From: an uncultured Acidobacteriia bacterium
Lineage (GTDB): Bacteria; Acidobacteriota; Terriglobia; Bryobacterales; Bryobacteraceae
Assembly (NCBI GenBank): GCA_903881085.1
Contig: CAIRSA010000352.1
Span: 1 to 64,000, forward strand
Direction: 5' to 3'
DNA length: 64,000 bases
The notes beneath the pieces were generated by a model, which saw only the letters and a program-made list of their open reading frames with translations, made no database searches and was not told the DNA's origin. Of this stretch, positions 6,957 to 61,810 are shown one piece after another; position 1 is the first letter of the stretch; every line of letters starts with the position of its first letter. A program made the translations under genes and the position numbers.

Positions 6957-9581
6957 GTGGAAGAATCAACGGTGGGTCCATCCTGGCAAGACATCGAGAA
7001 CGCGTTTGACAAGGCCGCCGAACTGGATGGTGAAGCGCGCGCGGAATTCCTGCGGTCGATTGCCGATCCGGCTTTGCGTCAGGAAGTGGAATCGCTGTTT
7101 GCCGCAGAGGAGCGTGGCGGCACAACATTGAGCGGCATGGTAAGCGACGTGGCTGCAACCATTGACGATGAAAGCGTCAAGCTCAAGTCGGTGGGTCCAT
7201 GGAGCATCTTGCGTTTGTTGGCATCCGGCGGCATGGGGGCGGTCTATCTTGCCGAACGGCAGGGCGAAGGGTTCAGCCAGAAGGCCGCGTTAAAACTGCT
7301 GCTGCGGGGATTCGAAGGCCGCTTCTTTGTGTCGCGTTTCCGCCAGGAGCGGCGGATTTTAGCGACGCTGGATCATCCTCATATCGCGCGTCTGCTGGAT
7401 GGCGGCACGGCCGACGATGGGCGGCCTTATCTCGCACTGGAGTTCATCGATGGGCCAAGCATTACGGAGTTTTGCAAGGACCTGTCCACCGAGCGCCGCT
7501 TGGAGCTTTTTCTCGACGTCTGCAATGCGGTGGAACATGCCCATCAAAGGATGGTGATCCATCGCGATCTGAAGCCATCCAATATTCTGGTGAATCGCGA
7601 AGGTCAGGTGAAGCTGCTGGACTTCGGGATCGCGAAGATGCTGGACTCCGAAACGTCGGGCGCGAGTGTGGCGCTGACTGGCACGGGAGTCAAACTTATG
7701 ACGCCCGACTACGCCGCGCCCGAGCAGATACGTGGCGAGACGATCACCACGGCCACGGACGTTTATTGCCTGGGGCTGGTGTTGCATGAATTGCTGACTG
7801 GACGAAAGCCGTTGCCGCTGCCCAAGGATGCGCCGCTGGAAGCCGCACGCATCATCTGCGAGCGGGATCCGGAACCGGCCGGCATGTCGCCCGATATCGA
7901 TGCGGTGATTCTCAAATGCCTGCGAAAGGAGCCCGCCGCTCGCTACGCTGCGGTTTCCGGTTTGCGTGAAGACCTGGAGCGCGTGTTGCGTGGCGACGCA
8001 GTCACAGCGTATCGCGGGGCGTGGACTTACCGCGCGGTGCGATGGATTCGCCGGTATCGATGGGGCGTTGGGGCGGTGGCTTTATTGCTGATTGCGATTG
8101 GCGGCGGCGTGGCTTCCACCGCACGGGAGGCGCGCATCGCACAACGGCGGTATGAAGATGTTCGCGAGTTGGCGCGCACTGTGATTTTCGATGTGTACGA
8201 TCAGGTCGAAATGTTGCCCGCGGCAACGAAGGCCCGCGAAACCATTGTGAATACCGCTTTGCGATACCTGGAGGGGATGCGCTCGGACGCGCAAAGCGAT
8301 CCTGGTCTGGCGATGGAGTTAGCCGCGGCCTATGTGAAAGTCGGTGATGTTCTGGGATATCCGCGGATGGCCAATCTGGGGCGGATGAAAGAAGCCGTGG
8401 AGAGCTTTGAGAAAGCCAAGGTACTCTACTGGAGTGTTGCCGCGCGCGAACCATTGCGGCCCGGCGTGAATGGCGGCCTGGGGCGAGTGGCCGCTCGCTT
8501 TGCGGCGGTCGCAAACACACAACAGCGGCTTGCCGAAGCGCTGCGATTGAGCGATGAGGCGGAGCGGTACGAAGCTGCGGAATATGCAGTCAGCGGCAAG
8601 AAGGACTTGGACCTGTTGGTTCATGTGGATCATGAGCGGTTTCTGGTTGCAAGTTTTCAACAGGACGCCGCAGGGTCTCGACAGCGGTGCCTGGAACTGC
8701 TCGGACATGGCGAGGAATTGGACCGCCGTCATTCCGACGCGAATAGCCGCTACTGGGTCTCGTGCGCGCGAGGACAGGCTATTCTTGCCGATGCTTACGC
8801 CGGCGAGCCGACAGCTGCCGTGAAAGCGATGCTCTCCCATCTGGTGGCTATCGAGCGTGAGGTAGCCAAAGAAGATGCCCACCTCTGGCTCAAATCCGAC
8901 CTTACGTTTTATGAAGCTGCCTTGGTTAATTTGTATTCGGGGCTGACGGTTCCCTCTGCCGGGAATCCCGCTGAAGCCGTGCGCGTCGCAGACGCCAGGC
9001 GGTTGCGACCGAAGTCCAGGCAAGCCGCGGATAGAGCTGACCTGCGAGTCCGCACGATTGAAGTGATGCAGCAGTGCGTTGAGTTGCCTGCCAGAAGTTA
9101 CGTGGATGCTGCCGCCGGCTTCAGGGAGTTCCTCTCCATCCGCCACGAGATTCATGAGTTGGAGAGCCGTGGACATTCCGACGTCTTTGACGATTCCGAT
9201 TATCTGCTGCTGAGCGTCGGAGGAGTGCGGGCATTGCGGCTGCTGGGCAGGCGGGAGGAGGCCGCGGCACAGGCGCAAACGGGATTGAAGCGAGTGGAAG
9301 CACTCAAGGAAGGCGACGAGTCGCCGCATGTCGCGCATGGGGAAAACGTGCTTCGCTTTGAGCAGGCTCTGCTTGGAATCGATATCGGGGGAGCGGTTCA
9401 AAAGGCAGTGCGCGTTCAGAAGTCATGGCCTTTGTCGCTGTTACTGAAGGGCGACGTGGTGAAGATCCTGGCGCTGAGCGGGGCGCGCGCCGAAGCGGCG
9501 AAGGTGCTTGCCAGTATGCCAGCCTGCGAATACCGGCGCAGGCTGGAGAGCGAATTCAGAAAAAACAAATTTTTTGATTGA
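6957..9581 (+). CDS. Membrane Ser/Thr protein kinase with TPR-like C-terminal region (kinase 1)
   Basis: 874 residues starting at GTG 6957, one base after the DUF1080 stop. The N-terminal 80 residues are a helical segment common to this kinase class (PSWQDIENAFDKAAELDGEAR). The kinase domain is complete: Gly loop LASGGMGAVY (88-97), Lys in AALKLL (113), IHRDLKPSN (201-209), LDFGIAK (221-227) and YAAPEQ (252-257). A single membrane helix follows at about 369-387 (WGVGAVALLLIAIGGGVAS), then about 480 residues of helical TPR-like sequence presumably outside the membrane. The paralogue at 9838 is closely similar along its whole length. A microprotein gene follows 81 bp downstream. The activating signal is unknown; the tail is the likely sensor. 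Confidence 0.93.
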   Translation: MEESTVGPSWQDIENAFDKAAELDGEARAEFLRSIADPALRQEVESLFAAEERGGTTLSGMVSDVAATIDDESVKLKSVGPWSILRLLASGGMGAVYLAERQGEGFSQKAALKLLLRGFEGRFFVSRFRQERRILATLDHPHIARLLDGGTADDGRPYLALEFIDGPSITEFCKDLSTERRLELFLDVCNAVEHAHQRMVIHRDLKPSNILVNREGQVKLLDFGIAKMLDSETSGASVALTGTGVKLMTPDYAAPEQIRGETITTATDVYCLGLVLHELLTGRKPLPLPKDAPLEAARIICERDPEPAGMSPDIDAVILKCLRKEPAARYAAVSGLREDLERVLRGDAVTAYRGAWTYRAVRWIRRYRWGVGAVALLLIAIGGGVASTAREARIAQRRYEDVRELARTVIFDVYDQVEMLPAATKARETIVNTALRYLEGMRSDAQSDPGLAMELAAAYVKVGDVLGYPRMANLGRMKEAVESFEKAKVLYWSVAAREPLRPGVNGGLGRVAARFAAVANTQQRLAEALRLSDEAERYEAAEYAVSGKKDLDLLVHVDHERFLVASFQQDAAGSRQRCLELLGHGEELDRRHSDANSRYWVSCARGQAILADAYAGEPTAAVKAMLSHLVAIEREVAKEDAHLWLKSDLTFYEAALVNLYSGLTVPSAGNPAEAVRVADARRLRPKSRQAADRADLRVRTIEVMQQCVELPARSYVDAAAGFREFLSIRHEIHELESRGHSDVFDDSDYLLLSVGGVRALRLLGRREEAAAQAQTGLKRVEALKEGDESPHVAHGENVLRFEQALLGIDIGGAVQKAVRVQKSWPLSLLLKGDVVKILALSGARAEAAKVLASMPACEYRRRLESEFRKNKFFD

Positions 9582-9583
9582 GA

Positions 9584-9617
9584 GTGATCAATTTGACCGT
9601 TCCATTTCGAATGTACT
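9584..9617 (+). promoter_or_regulatory. Conserved upstream block of NHNQ peptide gene 1 (GTGATC-N22-TGTACT)
   Basis: GTGATC at 9584-9589, exactly 22 bases, then TGTACT at 9612-9617, followed by CGTGTAGGCGG and a GGCGGCG/CGCTGCC hairpin before the Shine-Dalgarno. The same arrangement precedes the other three NHNQ genes. It begins three bases after the kinase stop codon. It could be a promoter read by an ECF-type sigma factor or a conserved RNA leader. Confidence 0.5.
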
Positions 9618-9662
9618 CGTGTAGGCGGCGGGAAACGCTGCCGCAATCAAAGGAGACTCGAA

Positions 9663-9728
9663 ATGAAAACGAAGACCAAAATGACTGCCGGCGCATTGAC
9701 CCCGAACCACAATCAAACCAGCCGCTAA
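9663..9728 (+). CDS. NHNQ microprotein 1 (single unit, 21 residues)
   Basis: Begins MKTKTKMTAGAL and ends TPNHNQTSR; TAA at 9726-9728. The start has a strong Shine-Dalgarno (AAAGGAGA, about 8 bases upstream). Seventeen of 21 residues match microprotein 2 at 12530, and the core AGxLxxNHNQ recurs in the two longer peptides at 57.8 and 58.9 kb. The peptide is basic at the N-terminus and has no secretion signal or membrane helix. It sits between two kinase genes and, with microprotein 2, upstream of an ECF sigma gene. I do not recognise the family and assign no function. Possible roles are a regulatory ligand or inhibitor of the kinase/sigma pair, or a precursor of a modified peptide. Confidence 0.7.
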   Translation: MKTKTKMTAGALTPNHNQTSR

Positions 9729-9745
9729 TTAAGATTTCAATCATC

Positions 9746-9782
9746 GGGGAAGCCGCGGTTGTACGGCAACCGCGGCTTCCCC
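9746..9782 (+). terminator. Perfect 16-bp hairpin between microprotein 1 and kinase 2
   Basis: GGGGAAGCCGCGGTTG (9746-9761), loop TACGG, then its exact complement (9767-9782). The stem is very stable. No long T tract follows on the plus strand (GTGTTCATTTGC), so it may be a weak terminator, a processing site or an mRNA stabiliser that sets the ratio of microprotein to kinase 2. Confidence 0.55.
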
Positions 9783-9837
9783 GTGTTCATTTGCGGTCAA
9801 CGCACTTGATCGATAGTGTACAAATCGGCTAAATTGA

Positions 9838-12450
9838 ATGCCTGTGACCCCATCCTGGCAGGAGATAGACGCCGCGTTTGTGCGGGCCGCCAATCTGGAA
9901 GGCGAAGCGCGCGCAGCGTTTCTTGATTCACTTGCGGATGCAACATTGCGGCGGGAAGTGGAAGCGTTGCTTGAGGCCGATGGCGATGCCGCGGGCCTGC
10001 TCACCGGTCTGGTGGGAGATGCCGCCGCGGCACTCGACGACGTTGACACTTTGGAGTTTGTCGGTGCATGGAAAATTCTACGGCCGCTGGCCGCAGGCGG
10101 GATGGGAACTGTCTACCTTGCGGAACGTGAGGGCGAAGGCTTTCGCCAAAAAGCCGCGCTGAAACTTTTGCGGCGCGGATTTGACAGCCGGTTTTTCGTA
10201 TCGCGCTTTCGCCAGGAGAGGCGCATTCTTGCTTCGCTTGAGCATCCACACATCGCCCACCTGTTGGATGGCGGCACGGCTGCCGACGGACGGCCCTATC
10301 TTGCGCTGGAATTCGTTGACGGCCAATCCATCACATCCTACTGTGCGGAGCTGCCGCAGGAGCAGCGCGTCCGCCTCTTCCTCGATGTTTGCTTCGCGGT
10401 GGATCACGCTCACCAGCGCATGGTGATTCACCGCGACATCAAGCCATCCAACATACTGGTGAATCGCGAGGGCCAGGTGAAACTGCTGGATTTCGGCATC
10501 GCTAAAATGCTGGATGCCGGGAGTTCCGACGAAAGCGTTGCCCTCACCGGTACCGGCGTGAAACTGATGACTCCGGAATACGCTGCGCCTGAGCAGGTGC
10601 GCGGCGGGACCATCACTGCCGCGACGGATGTCTATTGCCTGGGCCTTGTCCTTTATGAAGTGCTCACCGGGCGTAAGCCTTTGGCCTTGCCCGCGGACGC
10701 GCCACTGGAGGCAGCGCGGCTGATCTGCGAGCAGGAACCGGCGGCGACCGGTTTGCCGCCGGATCTTGACGCCGTGGTTCGCAAGTGCCTGCGCAAGGAG
10801 CCCTCCTCAAGATACTCCGTTGTGGCCGGATTAAGCGCAGACCTGGAGCGGGTGCTGCGTGGCGACGCGGTCTCAGCTTATCGCGGGGCCTTTAGTTATC
10901 GCGCAGGGAAGTGGCTGCGGCGCTATCGCTGGGGCGTGGCTGCAGCGGTGCTGGTGTTGCTTGCCGTTGGGGGCGGCGTGTTCGCAACGGCCCGCCAGGC
11001 GCGCATCGCGCAGAAGCGTTATGAGGACGTGCGCCGGCTTGCGCGCACCGTGATCTTCGATGTGTACGATCAGGTGGAGATGCTGCCCGCGGCGACCAAA
11101 GCGCGAGAGACCATCGTGAATACGGCGCTCGAGTATCTGCAGGGACTCAGCGTTGATGCACGTGACGATCCAGGATTGGCCATGGAACTGGCAGCAGCCT
11201 ATGTAAAGGTTGGCGATGTTTTAGGTTACCCACGCATGCCGAATCTTGGGCGGCTCAAAGAGGCGGTGGGGAGCTTTCAAAAGGCCAGGACTTTGTATAA
11301 TAGCGTTGCGGTGCAGCAGCCAGGCAGGCCTGGCGTCAGGCGAGGACTGGCCCGTATCTCCGCACGAATGGCCGCGGTTGCAAATAACCAGCAACAACTG
11401 GACGAAGCCATGCGCCTGGTTGAGGAAGCGGAGCGGTTGGAAAGGCAGGAATCCGCTGGAGACGCCAATCGGGATTGGGATCTGCTTGTGCATCTGGATT
11501 ATGAACGCGTGGTAGCAGCGGGATTTCGAGAAGACGCCGCCGATCACCGCTCGCGACTGGCGGAGTTGGGTAGAGACGCGGCCGAACTGTATCGAATTCG
11601 TCCTGACGAAAACAGCCGGTATTGGATTTCCCTCGTGCGGCGCCAGACCATTTTGTCGAACGCGTTTTCCGGCGAGCCGTCGCTTGCTTTTCAGCAGCTT
11701 CTTCCGGAACTGGCAGTGATGAAGAGAGAAGTTTCCGCGGAAAACATTCATCCGTGGCTGAAATCCGATCTGCTTTACTATAACGCCAATTTGACGTACT
11801 TCCTTTCGGGCTTGACCTTTCCATCTGCTGGACGGCCGGCTGACGCCGTCCGGGTTGCCGATGGCGGCGGCGTGGTTCCATCTACCATTCAGTCCTCCGA
11901 TCGGGCGGACTTGCGCCTGCGAGTGCATGATTTAATGCGGCGATGCGGTGTGCTGCCGGCCAGGGCGTTCTTAGATGCCAAGGCGGCGCTTGGTGAGTTC
12001 GTGGCTATACGGCAAGCCATGGACGAGTTGAAACGTTCCGGCAATTCCGATGCGTTTGACGATGTGGATTATTTGCAACTGGCAGTGGGCGGCGTTCGAT
12101 CCTTGCGCTTGTTGGGGCGAAAGGACGAGGCTGCCATCGAAGCGGTGAAGGGTTTGGCGCAGTTGGAGTCATTGAAGGAAGATGCGAAATCGCCTCAAGT
12201 GGTGCATTGCGAAAACGTGCTTCGATTTGAACAGGCACTGCTTGGTATCGATATTCAGACTGCTGTGCAACGGGCCCGCCTGGTTCAGTTGTTCTGGCCG
12301 TTTGCTCTTTTGCTGAAAGGCGACGTCATCAAGATCCTTTCCATCAGCGGAGAGCGGACCGAGGCGCAGAAGGTCCTGGAAAGCCTGCCGGCGTGTGAGT
12401 ACCACCGCCGGCTGGAGCAGGAATTTAAAAGCAACAAATTTTTAGATTAG
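9838..12450 (+). CDS. Membrane Ser/Thr protein kinase with TPR-like C-terminal region (kinase 2)
   Basis: 870 residues, a tandem paralogue of kinase 1 (6957). It shows the Gly loop LAAGGMGTVYLAE, AALKLL lysine, IHRDIKPSN, LDFGIAK and YAAPEQ motifs, a single helix WGVAAAVLVLLAVGGGVFA, and the shared RTVIFDVYDQVEMLPAATKA segment after the membrane. The ends also match (NKFFD in kinase 1, NKFLD in kinase 2), and the 80 bases after each stop are alike, so the duplicated unit was kinase plus microprotein leader. ATG 9838 aligns with the kinase 1 start region; no clear Shine-Dalgarno is seen. It probably phosphorylates a cytoplasmic partner in response to an external signal, with the neighbouring ECF sigma gene a candidate target system. 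Confidence 0.93.
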   Translation: MPVTPSWQEIDAAFVRAANLEGEARAAFLDSLADATLRREVEALLEADGDAAGLLTGLVGDAAAALDDVDTLEFVGAWKILRPLAAGGMGTVYLAEREGEGFRQKAALKLLRRGFDSRFFVSRFRQERRILASLEHPHIAHLLDGGTAADGRPYLALEFVDGQSITSYCAELPQEQRVRLFLDVCFAVDHAHQRMVIHRDIKPSNILVNREGQVKLLDFGIAKMLDAGSSDESVALTGTGVKLMTPEYAAPEQVRGGTITAATDVYCLGLVLYEVLTGRKPLALPADAPLEAARLICEQEPAATGLPPDLDAVVRKCLRKEPSSRYSVVAGLSADLERVLRGDAVSAYRGAFSYRAGKWLRRYRWGVAAAVLVLLAVGGGVFATARQARIAQKRYEDVRRLARTVIFDVYDQVEMLPAATKARETIVNTALEYLQGLSVDARDDPGLAMELAAAYVKVGDVLGYPRMPNLGRLKEAVGSFQKARTLYNSVAVQQPGRPGVRRGLARISARMAAVANNQQQLDEAMRLVEEAERLERQESAGDANRDWDLLVHLDYERVVAAGFREDAADHRSRLAELGRDAAELYRIRPDENSRYWISLVRRQTILSNAFSGEPSLAFQQLLPELAVMKREVSAENIHPWLKSDLLYYNANLTYFLSGLTFPSAGRPADAVRVADGGGVVPSTIQSSDRADLRLRVHDLMRRCGVLPARAFLDAKAALGEFVAIRQAMDELKRSGNSDAFDDVDYLQLAVGGVRSLRLLGRKDEAAIEAVKGLAQLESLKEDAKSPQVVHCENVLRFEQALLGIDIQTAVQRARLVQLFWPFALLLKGDVIKILSISGERTEAQKVLESLPACEYHRRLEQEFKSNKFLD

Positions 12451-12451
12451 C

Positions 12452-12485
12452 GTGATCAATTCCAGCGGCCGATTTCGAATGTGTA
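12452..12485 (+). promoter_or_regulatory. Conserved upstream block of NHNQ peptide gene 2 (GTGATC-N22-TGTGTA)
   Basis: GTGATC 12452-12457, 22 bases, TGTGTA 12480-12485, then GGTGAAGGCGG and a GGCGGCG-GGATA-CGCTGCC hairpin. It has the same order and spacing as the other three copies. Confidence 0.5.
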
Positions 12486-12529
12486 GGTGAAGGCGGCGGG
12501 ATACGCTGCCGAACAAAAGGAGAATCGAA

Positions 12530-12595
12530 ATGAAAACCAAAACGAACATGACCGCCGGCGCTTTGACCCCGAACCACAACCAATCGGTTCGCTAA
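12530..12595 (+). CDS. NHNQ microprotein 2 (single unit, 21 residues)
   Basis: Starts MKTKTNMTAGAL and ends TPNHNQSVR, TAA 12593-12595, with an AAAAGGAG Shine-Dalgarno eight bases before the ATG. The ECF sigma gene starts only three bases after the stop and has no Shine-Dalgarno of its own, so translation of the sigma factor is probably coupled to that of this peptide. This makes the microprotein an obligatory upstream cistron of the sigma gene. Family and function are unknown to me; see the copies at 9663, 57754 and 58857. Confidence 0.7.
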   Translation: MKTKTNMTAGALTPNHNQSVR

Positions 12596-12598
12596 TTC

Positions 12599-13174
12599 GT
12601 GGCGCCCAACTTGAATACAGGCGAAGTGACCAGCCTGCTGGTCCAGTGGCGCTCGGGTGACGTTGAAGTCCCTGAGCGCCTCATGCCGTTGTTGTATGCG
12701 GAACTTCGTAAGATCGCTTCCTCCCACCTTCGCCGGTCCCAAGGCTATAACACTCTCCAACCGACTGCCCTCATTCACGAGGCATGGCTGCGCCTGGCAG
12801 ATCAAACGCAAGTGAATGCTTCTGACCGCATCCATTTTTTCGGCATCTGCTCGCGGCTCATGCGGTTAATCCTGGTGGATAACCTGCGCCAGAAAAATGC
12901 GGGAAAGCGCGGCGGCGGCCTGGGCAATGTTCCGCTGAACGAGGCGGTTGCGGGCGCCAAGCAACAGGGCCGGGATGTGGAAGCGCTGCATATGGCGCTC
13001 GAAGCCCTGGAAAAGATCGATACGCGCAAAGCACAGATCGTTGAACTGCGCTATTTCGGCGGCCTGACCGCTGAGGAGATCTCGCAGCACCTGAACATCG
13101 GCACGGCAACCATCACACGGGATTTACGCACTGCGCAAGCGTGGCTGGCGCGCGAACTTGGCGCAACTCGTTAA
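12599..13174 (+). CDS. ECF RNA polymerase sigma factor (X6/TIGR02999 type)
   Basis: 191 residues from GTG 12599. Region 2 is visible as LLYAELRKIASSHLRRSQGYNTLQPTALIHEAWLRL and the FFGICSRLMRLILVDNLR stretch. Region 4 follows near the C-terminus (IVELRYFGGLTAEEISQHLNIGTATITRDLRTAQAWLAREL) with its helix-turn-helix. Sigma factors of this class are frequently encoded beside Ser/Thr kinases in Acidobacteria and Planctomycetes and usually lack a classic anti-sigma gene, as here. It lies three bases behind microprotein 2 and is likely expressed by translational coupling. The candidate target is the GTGAKC-N22-TGT block shared by the microprotein genes, which is inference. Confidence 0.92.
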   Translation: MAPNLNTGEVTSLLVQWRSGDVEVPERLMPLLYAELRKIASSHLRRSQGYNTLQPTALIHEAWLRLADQTQVNASDRIHFFGICSRLMRLILVDNLRQKNAGKRGGGLGNVPLNEAVAGAKQQGRDVEALHMALEALEKIDTRKAQIVELRYFGGLTAEEISQHLNIGTATITRDLRTAQAWLARELGATR

Positions 13175-57744: not shown

Positions 57745-57760
57745 CCTATAAGTTTATAGG
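57745..57760 (-). terminator. Short perfect hairpin over the stop codon of NHNQ microprotein 3
   Basis: CCTATAA-(2 bases)-TTATAGG, seven pairs, overlapping the TAA stop. On the minus strand it is followed by a T-rich TTTGTGGTTTT. It is a weak intrinsic terminator candidate. Confidence 0.4.
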
Positions 57761-57879
57761 GCGCTTTGGTTGTGGTTTTGGTGCATGCCGCCGGCCTTCA
57801 CCGCGCTCTTCACTGCGATCCCGCACTGATTGTGGTTGTACGCAACGCTGCCAGCCTTAACTTTGCTAGTGATTTTCAT
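57754..57879 (-). CDS. NHNQ microprotein 3 (two units, 41 residues)
   Basis: Starts MKITSKVKAG and contains two copies of a 20-residue unit: VKAGSVAYNHNQ...VKSA, then VKAGGMHQNHNQSAL at the end. It has an AAAGGA Shine-Dalgarno eight bases before the ATG. The unit is the same as in microproteins 1, 2 and 4. One Cys follows the first NHNQ. It has no signal sequence or membrane helix and is positively charged between the units. It lies divergently upstream of the ECF sigma gene (58017). Function unknown to me. Confidence 0.65.
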   Translation of the reverse strand: MKITSKVKAGSVAYNHNQCGIAVKSAVKAGGMHQNHNQSAL

Positions 57880-57931
57880 AATTTTGTCCTTTCCCTTTTT
57901 CATTTTCGGCGGCTTAATTTCCGCCTTCACT

Positions 57932-57965
57932 TATACACACACCAACCGCCACGAAAACAGCTCAC
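57932..57965 (-). promoter_or_regulatory. Conserved upstream block of NHNQ peptide gene 3 (GTGAGC-N22-TGTATA)
   Basis: On the minus strand GTGAGC (57965-57960), exactly 22 bases, TGTATA (57937-57932), then AGTGAAGGCGG and the GGCGG-AAATTAAG-CCGCC hairpin. It is nearly the same as block 4 at 59095-59128. Confidence 0.5.
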
Positions 57966-58016
57966 GAGCCCCAGAACTTTTTTTGAAGCAGCTCTGCTAC
58001 ACTACAGATCACGCTC

Positions 58017-58583
58017 ATGACACCACCCCCAGCCGGCGACATCACCGTCATCCTCCAACGCTGGGACACAGACCGCGACTCAGCCATCGAAGCCCTGACT
58101 CCCATCGTCTATGGCGAACTTCACAAGATCGCCGCCAGCTTCCTGCGCCGCCAAAGCCCCGGCCACACGCTCCAGCCTACCGCGCTGATTAACGAAGCCT
58201 ACATGCGCCTGGTGAAGCAGGACGAAGCCAGCCTTACTGATCGCAGCCACTTCTACGCCCTGGCCGCCCGCATGATGCGCCAGATTCTGCTCAACGCCGC
58301 CCGCGACAATCGCGCCCAGAAGCGCGGTTCGGGCAACGTGGTTCAACTGGATGGCAATGTGGAAATCGGCGAGGCAGGACACAATCTGGATTTCATGGCG
58401 CTGAATGAGGCATTGGAAAAGCTCCAGGTGCACAACGCCAGAATGGCTCAAGTGGTGGAGTTGCGCTTCTTCGGAGGCCTGCAATTGGACGAGATCGCGG
58501 CGTCGCTTTCGATAGGGCTCGCTACGGTGAAGCGTGATCTCACGTTAGGGCAGGCTTACTTGCGGAATGTGTTGACGGGTTGA
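58017..58583 (+). CDS. ECF RNA polymerase sigma factor (X6/TIGR02999 type) 2
   Basis: 188 residues. Region 2: VYGELHKIAASFLRRQSPGHTLQPTALINEAYMRLVK and the FYALAARMMRQILLNAARDN stretch. Region 4: VVELRFFGGLQLDEIAASLSIGLATVKRDLTLGQAYLRNVL with its helix-turn-helix. Similar along its length to the ECF gene at 12599. It lies between two minus-strand microprotein genes, divergent from one and convergent with the other, and ends 0.6 kb from the kinase. The closest candidate targets are the GTGAKC-N22-TGT blocks on both sides. No anti-sigma gene is next to it. Confidence 0.93.
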   Translation: MTPPPAGDITVILQRWDTDRDSAIEALTPIVYGELHKIAASFLRRQSPGHTLQPTALINEAYMRLVKQDEASLTDRSHFYALAARMMRQILLNAARDNRAQKRGSGNVVQLDGNVEIGEAGHNLDFMALNEALEKLQVHNARMAQVVELRFFGGLQLDEIAASLSIGLATVKRDLTLGQAYLRNVLTG

Positions 58584-58856: not shown

Positions 58857-59042
58857 TTACCTGCTCGACTGGTTGTGGTTAACCATGAGGCCGCCCGCCT
58901 TCACCGCGCTTTTCACGGCAATCCCGTTCTGGTTGTGGTTAACCGAGAGACCGCCCGCCTTGACCGCGCTCTTCACAACGATTCCGCTCTGGTTGTGTTG
59001 CGCCGAGAGCCCGCCGGCCTTCACTTTGCTGATAATCTTCAT
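58857..59042 (-). CDS. NHNQ microprotein 4 (three units, 61 residues)
   Basis: Starts MKIISKVKAGGLSAQHNQ and has three 20-residue units: VKAGGLSAQHNQ, VKAGGLSVNHNQ and VKAGGLMVNHNQ, separated by SGIVVKSA and NGIAVKSA linkers, ending SSR. The frame is open to 59093, but ATG 59042 has an AAGGA-type Shine-Dalgarno and matches the MKI start of microprotein 3. It lies 122 bp downstream of the kinase stop, in the same direction. Units are separated by short linkers, so the gene looks expandable, as in multi-core precursor peptides. The GG before each L is a possible cleavage point (inference). No maturation enzyme is visible nearby. Confidence 0.68.
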   Translation of the reverse strand: MKIISKVKAGGLSAQHNQSGIVVKSAVKAGGLSVNHNQNGIAVKSAVKAGGLMVNHNQSSR

Positions 59043-59094: not shown

Positions 59095-59128
59095 TAGACA
59101 CACCCCATCGCACAATCAAACGGCTCAC
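59095..59128 (-). promoter_or_regulatory. Conserved upstream block of NHNQ peptide gene 4 (GTGAGC-N22-TGTCTA)
   Basis: On the minus strand GTGAGC (59128-59123), 22 bases, TGTCTA (59100-59095), then AGTGAAGGCGG and GGCGG-AAATTAAG-CCGCC. It is 36 bases beyond the kinase stop, parallel to the placement after kinases 1 and 2. Confidence 0.5.
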
Positions 59129-59164
59129 GGCATCGAAAGATTTTTTCAAATTTCTTATCCGATC

Positions 59165-61810
59165 TTAGTTTCGGGCAGGTGTAGCGGCGATGCGTGCCGC
59201 CAACGCCGCCTCTTCCCTCCGCACGTAGTCGTTCTGCTCCGGATGGTCAGTCCACAGTTTGGCCGCTGCGGCGAACCATCGACCAGCCTTCGCCGCGTCG
59301 CCGCTTCTGCGCCAGTGCACCCCCAGCCGCTCCCGAATCCTCGCCAGCGGAATTACGCTCGTCAGTTCCTTCGGATTCGCAGCGTAGATTCCCGCAGCAA
59401 CGCTTTGCGCCTCCGTCAGGAATGTCTCCGCAGCGGCGGGCTCGTGCGTGGCTACCGCGGCATCTGCGGCGGCAAGCAGGATCAGCGCCAGGCTCGCCAA
59501 CTCATCCTGATTTTTCGGGTCTTTGGACAGCACCACGCGCTCGCCCCGCAGCGCCTCGTCGGCTTGCGCTCGCGCTTCAGCGGCATGACCGTAAAACAAT
59601 AATGCCTCAGCGTATCTGCGCAGCGCACGGTTGCGCCTGGAAAGCACCAGAAAGCTCTTTCTGCCCGCCGCGATCAGTTCGTCGAATATCGCCACGGATT
59701 CACGCGCGCTGGCCACAGCCGCCTTGGGGTCCAAATATTTCAAAGGCATCGACAGTCGTAACTTCGCAATCGCCAAACTGAAACGTGCTGATTGATCCTT
59801 CGCATCTCGGTCCACCATGCGTTGCACACCATCCAGATATTGCCGCGCGTACACGGCCGAGCGCGCTGGATCATTCAGGTGCGGTGCGGAATCGTCGAAC
59901 CACGCGCGTGACTGGTCCTGCCCCAACAGGGCTAAGCCGCGCAGAGCTGCCGGATTGAAAGGTTCTTTCCGCAAAACCTCTTCGTGAAGCGCTTGCGCGT
60001 CATCGAACGCTTGCAATGCTTCGCGCAATTGACCGGTTGCCGCCGCCGAGGATCCAAACTCATTTCGGGACAGAGCCGCCACATATAGGTTCTGTACATT
60101 GCGCGTTTTTGCCACAAGCTCGCTTGTAATCGCATCGCACTTCCGGAACCGCTCCAGCGCCAGCGTAAAATGGCTGGGCTCCACCGCCACTTGTCCTAGC
60201 ACGCACCATGCGTCGGCCACTTCTCGCTCGTTCGCTCCACTCAGGTGCTGCAAGCCTGCTTCAGCCATTCGCTCAGCTTCGACAAGATTTCCGGCCCGCA
60301 GCAGCAGATGGGCGAAATCCACTTCGAACACCCCCAGCGCATTCTGTTGGGCGGGCTCTTTTGCCGCAATGCGTTCATAGATCGCCGCCGCCTTGCGGTA
60401 ACTCGCAATCGCCTCTTCCGTCTTGCCCAGACTTGGCCGCGTTGGATAACCCTGCGCATCACCGACTTTGCGGTACGCCGCCGCCAACTCTTTTTGCAGG
60501 CCTAAATCGCCTTCCGCACTTTTTGACAGATTGTCCAGATACTCCACCGCCGTGCCCACCATCTTCGCGCGCACCGCAGTCGTGCCTTGCAGTTTCGCCA
60601 GATCGTCCGTGTAGTCGAACACGAAGCTATGTGCAAGCCGCCGCACCTGTTCGAACCGCTCATTGGAGATGCGTGCCTGCCGCAGCGCAACGGCCGCGCC
60701 ACCGGCGATGGCAACCATCACCGCAGCCGCAGCGCCCAATGCCAGCGCGTTGCGACGTACAAACCTGCTTGCCCGATAGCTGAACGAATCACCGCGCGCG
60801 AGAACCGGCCTATGATCCATGCTGCGTCGCACGTCTTCGGCGAACTGCTCCACCGAAGCATACCGCCGCGCCGGTTCCTTGCGCATGGCCATCAGCAGGA
60901 TGTTGTCCAGATCCTTGCCCAGCCCCGGTGGCGCAGGCTCCGTCAGGCACACGGCATTGTGAATATCCATCGGCGCCAGCGTCGGCACGTTGTATGGACG
61001 CTGCCCGGTCAGCATTTCGTAAAGATTCACACCCAACGAATAGACGTCGCATGCCGTGGTGATCGCTTCGCCGCGTACCTGCTCCGGACTCGCGTAGTCA
61101 GGCGTGAACGCGATCATGCCGGTCATTGTGCGTTGTGCGTTCTCGACCAGCAGTTTCGCGATGCCAAAGTCGAGCAGCTTCGGCGTGCCGTCCTTGGTCA
61201 CCATGATATTCGCAGGCTTCAGATCCCGGTGCACAATCAGGTTCCGGTGCGCCTGCGCCACTGCGTCAGCCACCGCCAGAAACAGTTCGAGCTTTTTACG
61301 CAATGGCCAGCCCTCTGTTGCCGCGGTAAGCGGCAGGCCGTCCACATATTCCATTACCAGATAAGGCGCGCCGTTCGCCGTCTGGCCGCCATCCAGCAGC
61401 CGCGCGATGTTGGGGTGCTCCAGGCCAGCCAGAATCTGCCGCTCCATGACAAAGCGTTCTCGCGCGGCATCGCTATCCATTTCCCACTTTACGATCTTGA
61501 TCGCAACGCGTTGGTGAAAGTTGCCGTCGTCACGCACCGCTTCGAATACCGTGCCCTGGCCGCCGTTACCCAGCCGCCGCACCACGCTATATGGGCCGAT
61601 GCGTTCCACCGTTGTTACTGCCACCGCGGCGGTTTCGATAATTGAAGTCAGGATGGCTGCGCTATCGCCGGTGTCATCCAGAAGCTTCGTCAATTCCGAC
61701 CGCACTACCGGGTCCGCAATCGCCGCCACTAAGGCTGCGCGCTCCGCGGGCGGCAACTCATACATCGCATCGTATTGCTCTTCGACTTCGCGCCACTGCT
61801 CTTCGGTCAC
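59165..61810 (-). CDS. Membrane Ser/Thr protein kinase with TPR-like C-terminal region (kinase 3)
   Basis: 881 residues from GTG 61810. The N-terminal helical segment is MTEEQWREVEEQYDAMYELPPAERAAL in two parts. The kinase domain shows LGNGGQGTVFEA (Gly loop), VAIKIVK (Lys), VHRDLKPANI, LDFGIAKLL and YASPEQVRG. A membrane helix (ALALGAAAAVMVAIAGGAAVAL) and a long TPR-like tail follow. It has the same layout as kinases 1 and 2 but is only distantly similar, so the linkage with NHNQ genes and an ECF gene is not simply a recent copy. Its start overlaps the DUF429 stop (GTGA). Confidence 0.93.
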   Translation of the reverse strand: MTEEQWREVEEQYDAMYELPPAERAALVAAIADPVVRSELTKLLDDTGDSAAILTSIIETAAVAVTTVERIGPYSVVRRLGNGGQGTVFEAVRDDGNFHQRVAIKIVKWEMDSDAARERFVMERQILAGLEHPNIARLLDGGQTANGAPYLVMEYVDGLPLTAATEGWPLRKKLELFLAVADAVAQAHRNLIVHRDLKPANIMVTKDGTPKLLDFGIAKLLVENAQRTMTGMIAFTPDYASPEQVRGEAITTACDVYSLGVNLYEMLTGQRPYNVPTLAPMDIHNAVCLTEPAPPGLGKDLDNILLMAMRKEPARRYASVEQFAEDVRRSMDHRPVLARGDSFSYRASRFVRRNALALGAAAAVMVAIAGGAAVALRQARISNERFEQVRRLAHSFVFDYTDDLAKLQGTTAVRAKMVGTAVEYLDNLSKSAEGDLGLQKELAAAYRKVGDAQGYPTRPSLGKTEEAIASYRKAAAIYERIAAKEPAQQNALGVFEVDFAHLLLRAGNLVEAERMAEAGLQHLSGANEREVADAWCVLGQVAVEPSHFTLALERFRKCDAITSELVAKTRNVQNLYVAALSRNEFGSSAAATGQLREALQAFDDAQALHEEVLRKEPFNPAALRGLALLGQDQSRAWFDDSAPHLNDPARSAVYARQYLDGVQRMVDRDAKDQSARFSLAIAKLRLSMPLKYLDPKAAVASARESVAIFDELIAAGRKSFLVLSRRNRALRRYAEALLFYGHAAEARAQADEALRGERVVLSKDPKNQDELASLALILLAAADAAVATHEPAAAETFLTEAQSVAAGIYAANPKELTSVIPLARIRERLGVHWRRSGDAAKAGRWFAAAAKLWTDHPEQNDYVRREEAALAARIAATPARN

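Follow-up and report, generated by a model that had tools for sequence, protein, structure and literature searches.

Two kinds of described system come closest to the genes considered here. The streptococcal ComABCDE and Blp systems are double-glycine peptide circuits that operate with a histidine kinase and a response regulator. The other kind pairs an extracytoplasmic function (ECF) sigma factor with a Hanks-type Ser/Thr kinase: EcfP reportedly has no DAED motif, is activated by threonine phosphorylation and responds to polymyxin (PMC8999054), and another report gives PknS a cytoplasmic kinase domain and periplasmic tetratricopeptide repeats (TPRs) and classes EcfK as ECF43 (PMC13147305). 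Here a 64,000-nucleotide stretch from an uncultured Acidobacteriia bacterium (contig CAIRSA010000352.1 of assembly GCA_903881085.1; termed here the window) is analysed, in which two tiny open reading frames (ORFs), to which an initial annotation of the DNA had drawn attention, lie among kinase and ECF sigma genes and encode peptides with an NHNQ core.

These peptides are an undescribed family in soil Acidobacteria--short, positively charged, often repeated, and with no curated model above its cut-off. On sequence evidence, their genes probably belong to an ECF regulon and the peptides themselves are likely to be exported; the fuller proposal, that the window ORFs encode precursors of exported cationic peptides within a receptor-kinase/ECF-sigma regulon, is put forward tentatively. 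The peptides might represent a novel type of signal among bacterial peptides. Exported peptides under an ECF/kinase circuit would explain the linkage to an exporter, the shared promoter-like element, the interleaving with kinase and ECF genes, and the division of the peptide into a constant first and a variable second half. Acidobacteria are abundant, little-studied soil bacteria, and little is established about what their kinase/ECF pairs respond to and what they control. That question becomes testable where a peptide gene stands in one string with the genes for exporter, sigma factor and kinase and with the promoter element.

A repeat family of short cationic peptides

The window contains four genes of the family:

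9663..9728, + strand: peptide gene 1, one unit, MKTKTKMTAGALTPNHNQTSR (translation and own-genome profile matches)
12530..12595, + strand: peptide gene 2, one unit, MKTKTNMTAGALTPNHNQSVR (translation and own-genome profile matches)
57754..57879, - strand: two-unit peptide gene, MKITSKVKAGSVAYNHNQ..VKAGGMHQNHNQSAL (profile E 2.9e-21)
58857..59042, - strand: three-unit peptide gene (profile E 1.8e-20)

The coordinates and translations that the initial annotation gave for the two tiny ORFs are borne out, as are the strong Shine-Dalgarno sites it described (AAGGAG upstream of both) and the two longer related genes that it placed about 45 kb away, which have two and three units, respectively. It counted 17 of 21 shared residues; alignment gives 18 of 21 (86%), and the three residues that differ fall at positions that are variable across the family. 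Its notion of a 21-residue microprotein family stands insofar as the family is real, but a 21-residue gene holds just one unit of what is a repeat family.

The unit of about 20 residues reads [KR][ST]x(V/I/L)[KR]AG-(variable)-NHN[Q/E/T] and often occurs in tandem. The 78 distinct peptides in the fetched loci (a pattern-based final list; loci and contigs are given below by L and C numbers) have from 1 to 16 NHN-type cores, with a single core in 36. One-unit and multi-unit precursors have in common the NHN[Q/E/T] tail and an N-terminal half that stays constant, M-x-x-K-[ST]-x-(V/I/L)-K-A-G; the distance from Met to Gly is 10 residues in 55 of the 78. Conservation was counted in 194 units that passed a filter requiring at least four of six features, the Ser/Thr, the Lys/Arg before it and the Lys/Arg before the AG each being one of these optional features: Ser or Thr is present in 193 (Ser in 95, Thr in 98), with Lys or Arg directly before it in 187; Gly in 186, with Ala before it in 180 and Lys or Arg directly before the AG in 173; and, within the core, His in 194, the first Asn in 189, the second Asn in 182, Gln in 164 and Glu in 25. 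By comparison, the stretch from Gly to NHN, which is four or five residues long in 173 units, takes 164 distinct sequences among the 194. Net charge (K+R minus D+E) is positive in every one of the 78 peptides (median +7), and 40 of them end in Arg.

Core variants occur in other families of the class, namely NHNE (L132) and NHNT (L133, L134), and NHNT is also found within the host's own taxonomic family (L144, L155). NHVE replaces NHNQ in multi-unit peptides of the host's own genome (L151, 9972 and 9315, - strand; contig C553), beside a divergent ECF-kinase pair. Four peptide genes in L122 (9727-11758, + strand) have a CPxxxC-type insert between AG and NHN (e.g., KICPLRACGGTDGEDPNHNQ), which suggests disulphide or metal-binding variants. 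A second peptide gene with CTCTPPCLNHNQ lies behind its own promoter-like element in L141 (4153, + strand) and is absent among the profile matches listed. Finally, short ORFs in L097, L098 and L099 keep only MK[TI]K[TS]NVKAG, followed by an unrelated second half, and those of L097 and L099 adjoin a kinase gene; such relatives beside kinases are as expected if the two halves of the peptide have separate roles.

The statement that no known family could be recognised agrees with database searches: the peptide matches no NCBIfam model at E<=10, matches Pfam only below cut-off (best E 0.085), and matches PHROGs weakly (best E 0.0016, to a family of unknown function). Nor was a counterpart of the NHNQ family found in the literature by family strings or by topic, judged from the titles listed.

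Evidence that these are real, selected peptides comes from several sides. In the profile search of the host's genome the best match has an E of 2.4e-22 and the window ORFs have 7.9e-7 and 5.1e-7, both ORFs being rows of the profile that scored them. Between the two ORFs the nonsynonymous rate (dN) is 0.086 and the synonymous rate (dS) 1.14, giving dN/dS of about 0.08 (NG86; a rough value from 21 codons, for which YN00 gave none). Moreover, Asn, His and Gln codons vary at conserved residues, which is not the picture of a DNA-level repeat free of codon constraint by which the initial annotation would have had its proposal refuted. Profile E-values, codon variation and dN/dS together rule out chance ORFs or a DNA repeat, and with profile matches in 22 of 237 family genomes and few nonsynonymous changes, the earlier view of a real functional peptide is supported.

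In the host's own genome (11.9 Mb on 588 contigs; 98.6% complete, 5.4% contamination) a profile built from the copies first found there gives 80 matches with E<=1, which often overlap or share a gene. The count of peptide genes or gene pieces in this genome is 25, on 15 contigs, and two pairs of contig-end pieces (C266/C152, C120/C463) may each represent a single split gene. With profile A4 at E<=0.005, at least 22 of 237 genomes of the host's taxonomic family and at least 14 of 399 genomes of the class match. With profile A1 at E<=0.01, at least 3 of 396 phylum genomes match, the host's own among them; the other two are taken as chance, one having no NHN frame by pattern and the other a single poor match. 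A single degenerate pattern run against a collection of 84,980 species led to two confirmed loci, both labelled as Acidobacteria and one of them in Candidatus Sulfopaludibacter, which is placed in Bryobacterales; other phyla may carry the family too. An origin from mobile elements or phages was considered and set aside: one five-unit peptide used as query had no plasmid match, none of 72 pattern matches in viral contigs was confirmed as a relative, and the PHROG matches are weak (an annotated phage collection was not searched).

Exporter, promoter-like element and kinase/ECF neighbours

In 10 loci from 10 genomes and 9 genera (L117, L120, L127, L128, L129, L132, L133, L135, L144 and L155) a peptide gene heads a same-strand string with genes for HlyD and for an ATP-binding cassette (ABC) exporter with a C39 peptidase domain, either directly or with TPR, ECF or kinase genes between. 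The C39 domain is PF03412 in L135 and is likewise found by Pfam in the own-genome exporter. A search with the L135 exporter, scoring three candidates per genome, finds it in at least 35 of the 237 family genomes, and it is concentrated where the peptide is: in 17 of 22 peptide genomes versus 35 of 237 overall (Fisher 2e-12), or, when the peptide set is drawn more strictly, in 15 of 19 (4e-11). Because genomes of one genus are not independent, genera were counted too, and the exporter occurs in 13 of 14 peptide genera versus 16 of 76 (5e-11), although genera are also related to one another. Viewed from the exporter, a peptide gene lies in the string in 8 of the 28 inspected family exporter stretches (from 35 exporter genomes).

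Two of these strings contain arrays. In L132 (8844-10310, - strand) one- and two-unit NHNE peptide genes whose variable stretches differ stand directly ahead of the HlyD-C39 exporter. In L133 an array of one-unit peptide genes encloses the gene for a secreted-looking protein (9812-10369, + strand), whose C-terminal residues are cupredoxin-like and which matches nothing in Pfam at E<=1e-4. A protein consisting entirely of TPRs also recurs near the peptides and is often part of the strings with HlyD and the C39 exporter: of 14 matching ORFs in 782 kb, 8 have a listed peptide no more than 1.5 kb away, in some cases on the other strand. No modification enzyme appears among the 25 commonest of 90 Pfam families in a scan of 67 of 154 listed neighbours (from which known kinase, ECF, HlyD, C39 and other genes had been omitted by hand), so that a rare one could be missed.

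The stretches upstream of the peptide genes share CGTGATCnATTT, then about 13 nt, then CGCCnTA. In the majority of 18 own-genome genes this element lies 75-90 nt upstream of the start codon, and it is often followed by a stem-loop of changing sequence. A bipartite matrix trained on these 18 genes was tested on 40 genes from other genomes (including near relatives and genes inside arrays, and hence not 40 independent tests), where it reaches shuffle p<=0.05 in 17 and p<=0.01 in 13. Across 1.1 Mb of strand sequence from other genomes the matrix finds 21 sites with a score of 15 or more; 5 of these precede a peptide gene by 40-130 nt, and one of the 21 precedes HlyD by 64 nt in L127. In the window, where all four elements belong to the training set, the elements and leader structures are:

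9583..9618, + strand: ECF-type promoter-like element, blocks 9583-9594 and 9609-9618 with a 14-nt spacer (score 17.9)
9624..9642, + strand: leader stem-loop GGCGGCG-loop-CGCTGCC, read from sequence (folding z -1.76; stem length p 0.12)
12451..12486, + strand: ECF-type promoter-like element upstream of both peptide gene 2 and the ECF gene (score 18.3)
12492..12510, + strand: leader stem-loop GGCGGCG-loop-CGCTGCC, read from sequence (folding z -1.83; stem length p 0.13)
57931..57966, - strand: ECF-type promoter-like element of the two-unit gene (score 15.8)
59096..59129, - strand: ECF-type promoter-like element of the three-unit gene (score 14.8)

Over 57 leaders the mean folding z is -1.17, that is, more stable than shuffles that preserve mononucleotides only, and z is below -1.64 in 21; the stem-length test is weak, with 7 of 57 leaders beating shuffles.

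Around the peptide genes lie the following features:

6957..9581, + strand: Hanks-type Ser/Thr kinase 1, 874 aa, with the kinase domain at the N-terminus (PF00069 E 3.4e-41)
9746..9782, + strand: 16-bp inverted repeat, terminator-like, without a T run (read from the sequence)
9838..12450, + strand: Hanks-type Ser/Thr kinase 2, 870 aa (PF00069 E 1.3e-40)
12599..13174, + strand: ECF sigma factor, 191 aa, with QPTA at the ECF43 phosphosite position (PF07638 E 2.7e-46)
58017..58583, + strand: second ECF sigma factor, between the two repeat genes and on the strand opposite to them (PF07638 E 9.9e-44)
59165..61810, - strand: third Ser/Thr kinase, 881 aa, lying 5' of the three-unit gene and co-oriented with it (PF00069 E 1.2e-43)

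Kinase 2 has its kinase domain at 81-330, a hydropathy maximum at 367-385, which is likely to be a membrane helix, and a long C-terminal part; the C-terminal part of the third kinase gives a weak TPR_12 match (E 3.9e-6, below cut-off). Peptide gene 1 indeed lies between paralogous kinases (66.5% identical over 869 aa), and the inverted repeat directly 3' of it may make it a short transcription unit of its own. As the initial annotation also noted, peptide gene 2 stops three bases before an ECF gene (GTG start, PF07638) that has no visible Shine-Dalgarno site. When the two intergenic stretches are aligned, the blocks kept include GTGATCAATT, ATTTCGAATGT, both arms of the stem-loop, the Shine-Dalgarno site and the peptide frame. 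The kinase-peptide module, however, looks like a tandem duplication, and the kept neighbourhood of the two copies is therefore not independent evidence by itself.

The proposed tie to kinase and ECF genes is upheld more widely. In the host's own genome, which has 57 PF07638 matches, such a match lies within 5 kb of 20 of the 25 peptide genes or pieces and within 1 kb of 13, as against chance expectations of about 5% and 1% per gene. An ECF or kinase gene was located in 27 of the 53 fetched loci by tblastn with the window ECF factor, the window kinase and the exporter pair. The phosphosite Thr is present in 25 of 29 ECF matches of the loci and an acidic residue at motif position 1 or 4 in none; these features at the site of the acidic DAED motif of sigma2.2--together with an adjacent Hanks-type kinase gene in the window and in many related loci--are those of ECF43, and they support the prediction that the neighbouring factors are of this phosphorylation-activated type. 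In NCBIfam the L135 relative falls under TIGR02999, scoring 211 bits against a cut-off of 126. The exporter, the promoter-like element shared with other genomes and the TPR partner, none of which was visible to the earlier reading, change what the peptide probably does.

The proposed circuit and its rivals

In the proposed mechanism, a kinase-activated ECF factor would transcribe the peptide genes and the C39 exporter would secrete their products, acting in trans in the host's own genome (from contig C577). The exporter may also cut after the conserved Ala-Gly, a step for which the case is suggestive but short of persuasive; it would release peptides of about 11 residues, xLxxNHN[Q/T]xxR, from one-unit genes, and thus ALTPNHNQTSR and ALTPNHNQSVR from those of the window. 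Once outside the cytoplasm, the peptide would have its likeliest target in the C-terminal domain of the receptor kinase encoded nearby. This would close a positive loop in which a Hanks kinase and an ECF factor would make up a ComABCDE-like autoinduction circuit. A peptide that serves as its kinase's own signal would close the loop most simply, although it is somewhat doubtful that self-signalling is the main role. The boldest version, which is speculative and rather unlikely to hold in full, is a self-sensing system of Gram-negative soil bacteria in which the C39 exporter cuts family-specific short peptides from one-unit or tandem precursors at a ten-residue K[ST]xVKAG signal, paired Hanks receptor kinases recognise the peptides through their outer domains, and phosphorylated ECF43-type factors transcribe peptide, exporter and receptor anew, in about a dozen parallel channels per genome that differ in their peptide variants.

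A number of observations weigh against an exported peptide under such a circuit. The constant N-terminal half, of about 10 residues, is shorter than known double-glycine leaders; the residue after Gly is not restricted to G, A or S (R or K in L133, L144 and L155); and two or more cores, as found in 42 of 78 peptides, fit a pheromone less well. The promoter matrix misses p<=0.05 in 23 of 40 test promoters and reaches it at 5 of 22 tested HlyD starts, one of which (L132) is the element ahead of a peptide gene, and no promoter-like element above shuffles precedes the own-genome HlyD (p 0.36). No peptide was found alongside the exporter in 20 of the 28 inspected stretches, among them the host's own, whose one exporter match (contig C577) has no peptide gene found beside it; among the candidates scored, no peptide was detected anywhere in 18 of 35 exporter genomes, and no exporter in 5 of 22 peptide genomes (three candidates scored in each). 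Finally, 26 of 53 loci have no ECF or kinase gene in the fetched stretch, and 44 of the 57 own-genome ECF matches have no peptide gene within 5 kb, so that kinase/ECF pairs do not need the peptide.

Antimicrobial, secreted-fibre and kinase-substrate roles would fit much of the same evidence. As a bacteriocin-like arsenal, which is unlikely, cationic variants would be sent through one C39 exporter against competitors upon envelope-stress sensing by the ECF/kinase pair; in line with this are the positive charge of all 78 peptides (median +7), the 164 distinct variable sequences in 194 units, the variant arrays that precede the exporter in both L132 and L133, and the reported response of the ECF43 system EcfP/PknT to polymyxin (PMC8999054). 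No immunity-like gene stands out, however, only TPR families occurring in more than two of the 67 scanned neighbours (25 commonest of 90 families). The conserved parts, moreover, are hydrophilic and Asn/Gln-rich, and most membrane-active peptides are unlike such sequences. A structural role, in which multi-unit proteins would be secreted as beta-solenoid or amyloid-like fibres and one-unit peptides would be subunits stacking between molecules, is suggested by an AlphaFold2 model of a 14-unit own-genome protein (mean pLDDT 82, pTM 0.76). The model is solenoid-like, with a strand pattern repeating once per unit, and among its weak structural neighbours are tapirin, with a best E of 0.031, and curli CsgA, with an E of 0.38. 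This is nonetheless improbable: a model from a mixed, more diverged repeat alignment is poor (pLDDT 56), and the variable stretch and the many one-unit genes are left unexplained. The 14-unit model itself must be discounted, because neither model has a PDB match at E<=0.001 and AlphaFold2 is described in one report as giving confident but unrealistic beta-solenoids for repeat sequences (PMC11795689).

It is less probable still that the peptides stay inside the cell, either phosphorylated at the basic-flanked Ser/Thr of each unit or tuning kinase/ECF activity as pseudosubstrates. The residues concerned are well kept (Ser/Thr in 193 of 194 units, K/R before it in 187, K/R before AG in 173) and kinase genes are closely linked; yet the exporter linkage goes unexplained, the N-terminal half might just as well be what the exporter recognises, and the 19 kb fetched around the L132 peptides contain no related kinase. 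A leader ORF for the ECF gene--that is, an attenuator or translational coupling device whose peptide has no function--would account for peptide gene 2, which ends three bases before an ECF start without a visible Shine-Dalgarno site, but is very improbable in view of the dN/dS of about 0.08, of peptide gene 1, which lies between kinases with its own promoter-like element and an inverted repeat behind it, and of multi-unit paralogues, one of which (L010 10866-11423) is separated by about 500 bases from the called gene nearest to it.

Comparison with known systems

The pairs EcfP-PknT and EcfK-PknS, as described, resemble the genes examined here in the adjacent Hanks kinase and in a phosphosite Thr that replaces the acidic DAED motif; they differ in output, which is polymyxin resistance and type VI secretion there and peptide genes--in several genomes also a peptide exporter--here (PMC8999054, PMC13147305). 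FxSxx-COOH and HaaA systems (NF040586, NF041717) for ribosomally synthesized and post-translationally modified peptides likewise have an all-TPR protein near short precursors, but the three TPR proteins here score 137-156 bits against the NF040586 cut-off of 300, and no radical S-adenosylmethionine family is among the 25 commonest Pfam families of the 67 neighbours. With NHLP/NHLM export (TIGR03794, TIGR03796, TIGR03797) the likeness lies in two ABC proteins plus HlyD and in TIGR03796 being the top NCBIfam model for the L135 C39 ABC protein; unlike members of those families, however, the L135 proteins score far under cut-off (164.9 against 853.3 bits, 121.3 against 709.4 for the second ABC protein, and 61 against 156.2 for HlyD), and the precursors here lack the long nitrile-hydratase or Nif11 leader of those systems. 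Curli CsgA, like the NHNQ family, has Asn/Gln-containing repeats of about 20 residues, in a secreted protein; it differs in repeat motif, and the structural match (E 0.38) is not significant.

A C39-processed double-glycine leader has about 15-30 residues and ends in G-[GAS]. Here Met to Gly spans 10 residues in 55 of 78 peptides and the next residue can be R, K or V, while the C39-peptidase ABC exporter expected of such a system is linked in 10 loci and unlinked in 20 other exporter stretches. If the proposed export is true, the rules for C39-exported peptides would be widened to a presumed signal of ten residues that is repeated inside multi-unit precursors. The likeness to ComABCDE and Blp then lies in the small precursor, the C39 ABC exporter with an HlyD-like accessory protein, the membrane receptor kinase and the transcription factor; the differences are a constant half of about 10 residues ending in AG, multi-unit precursors and a signal function that is here inferred, and a Hanks Ser/Thr kinase and an ECF sigma factor in place of the histidine kinase and response regulator.

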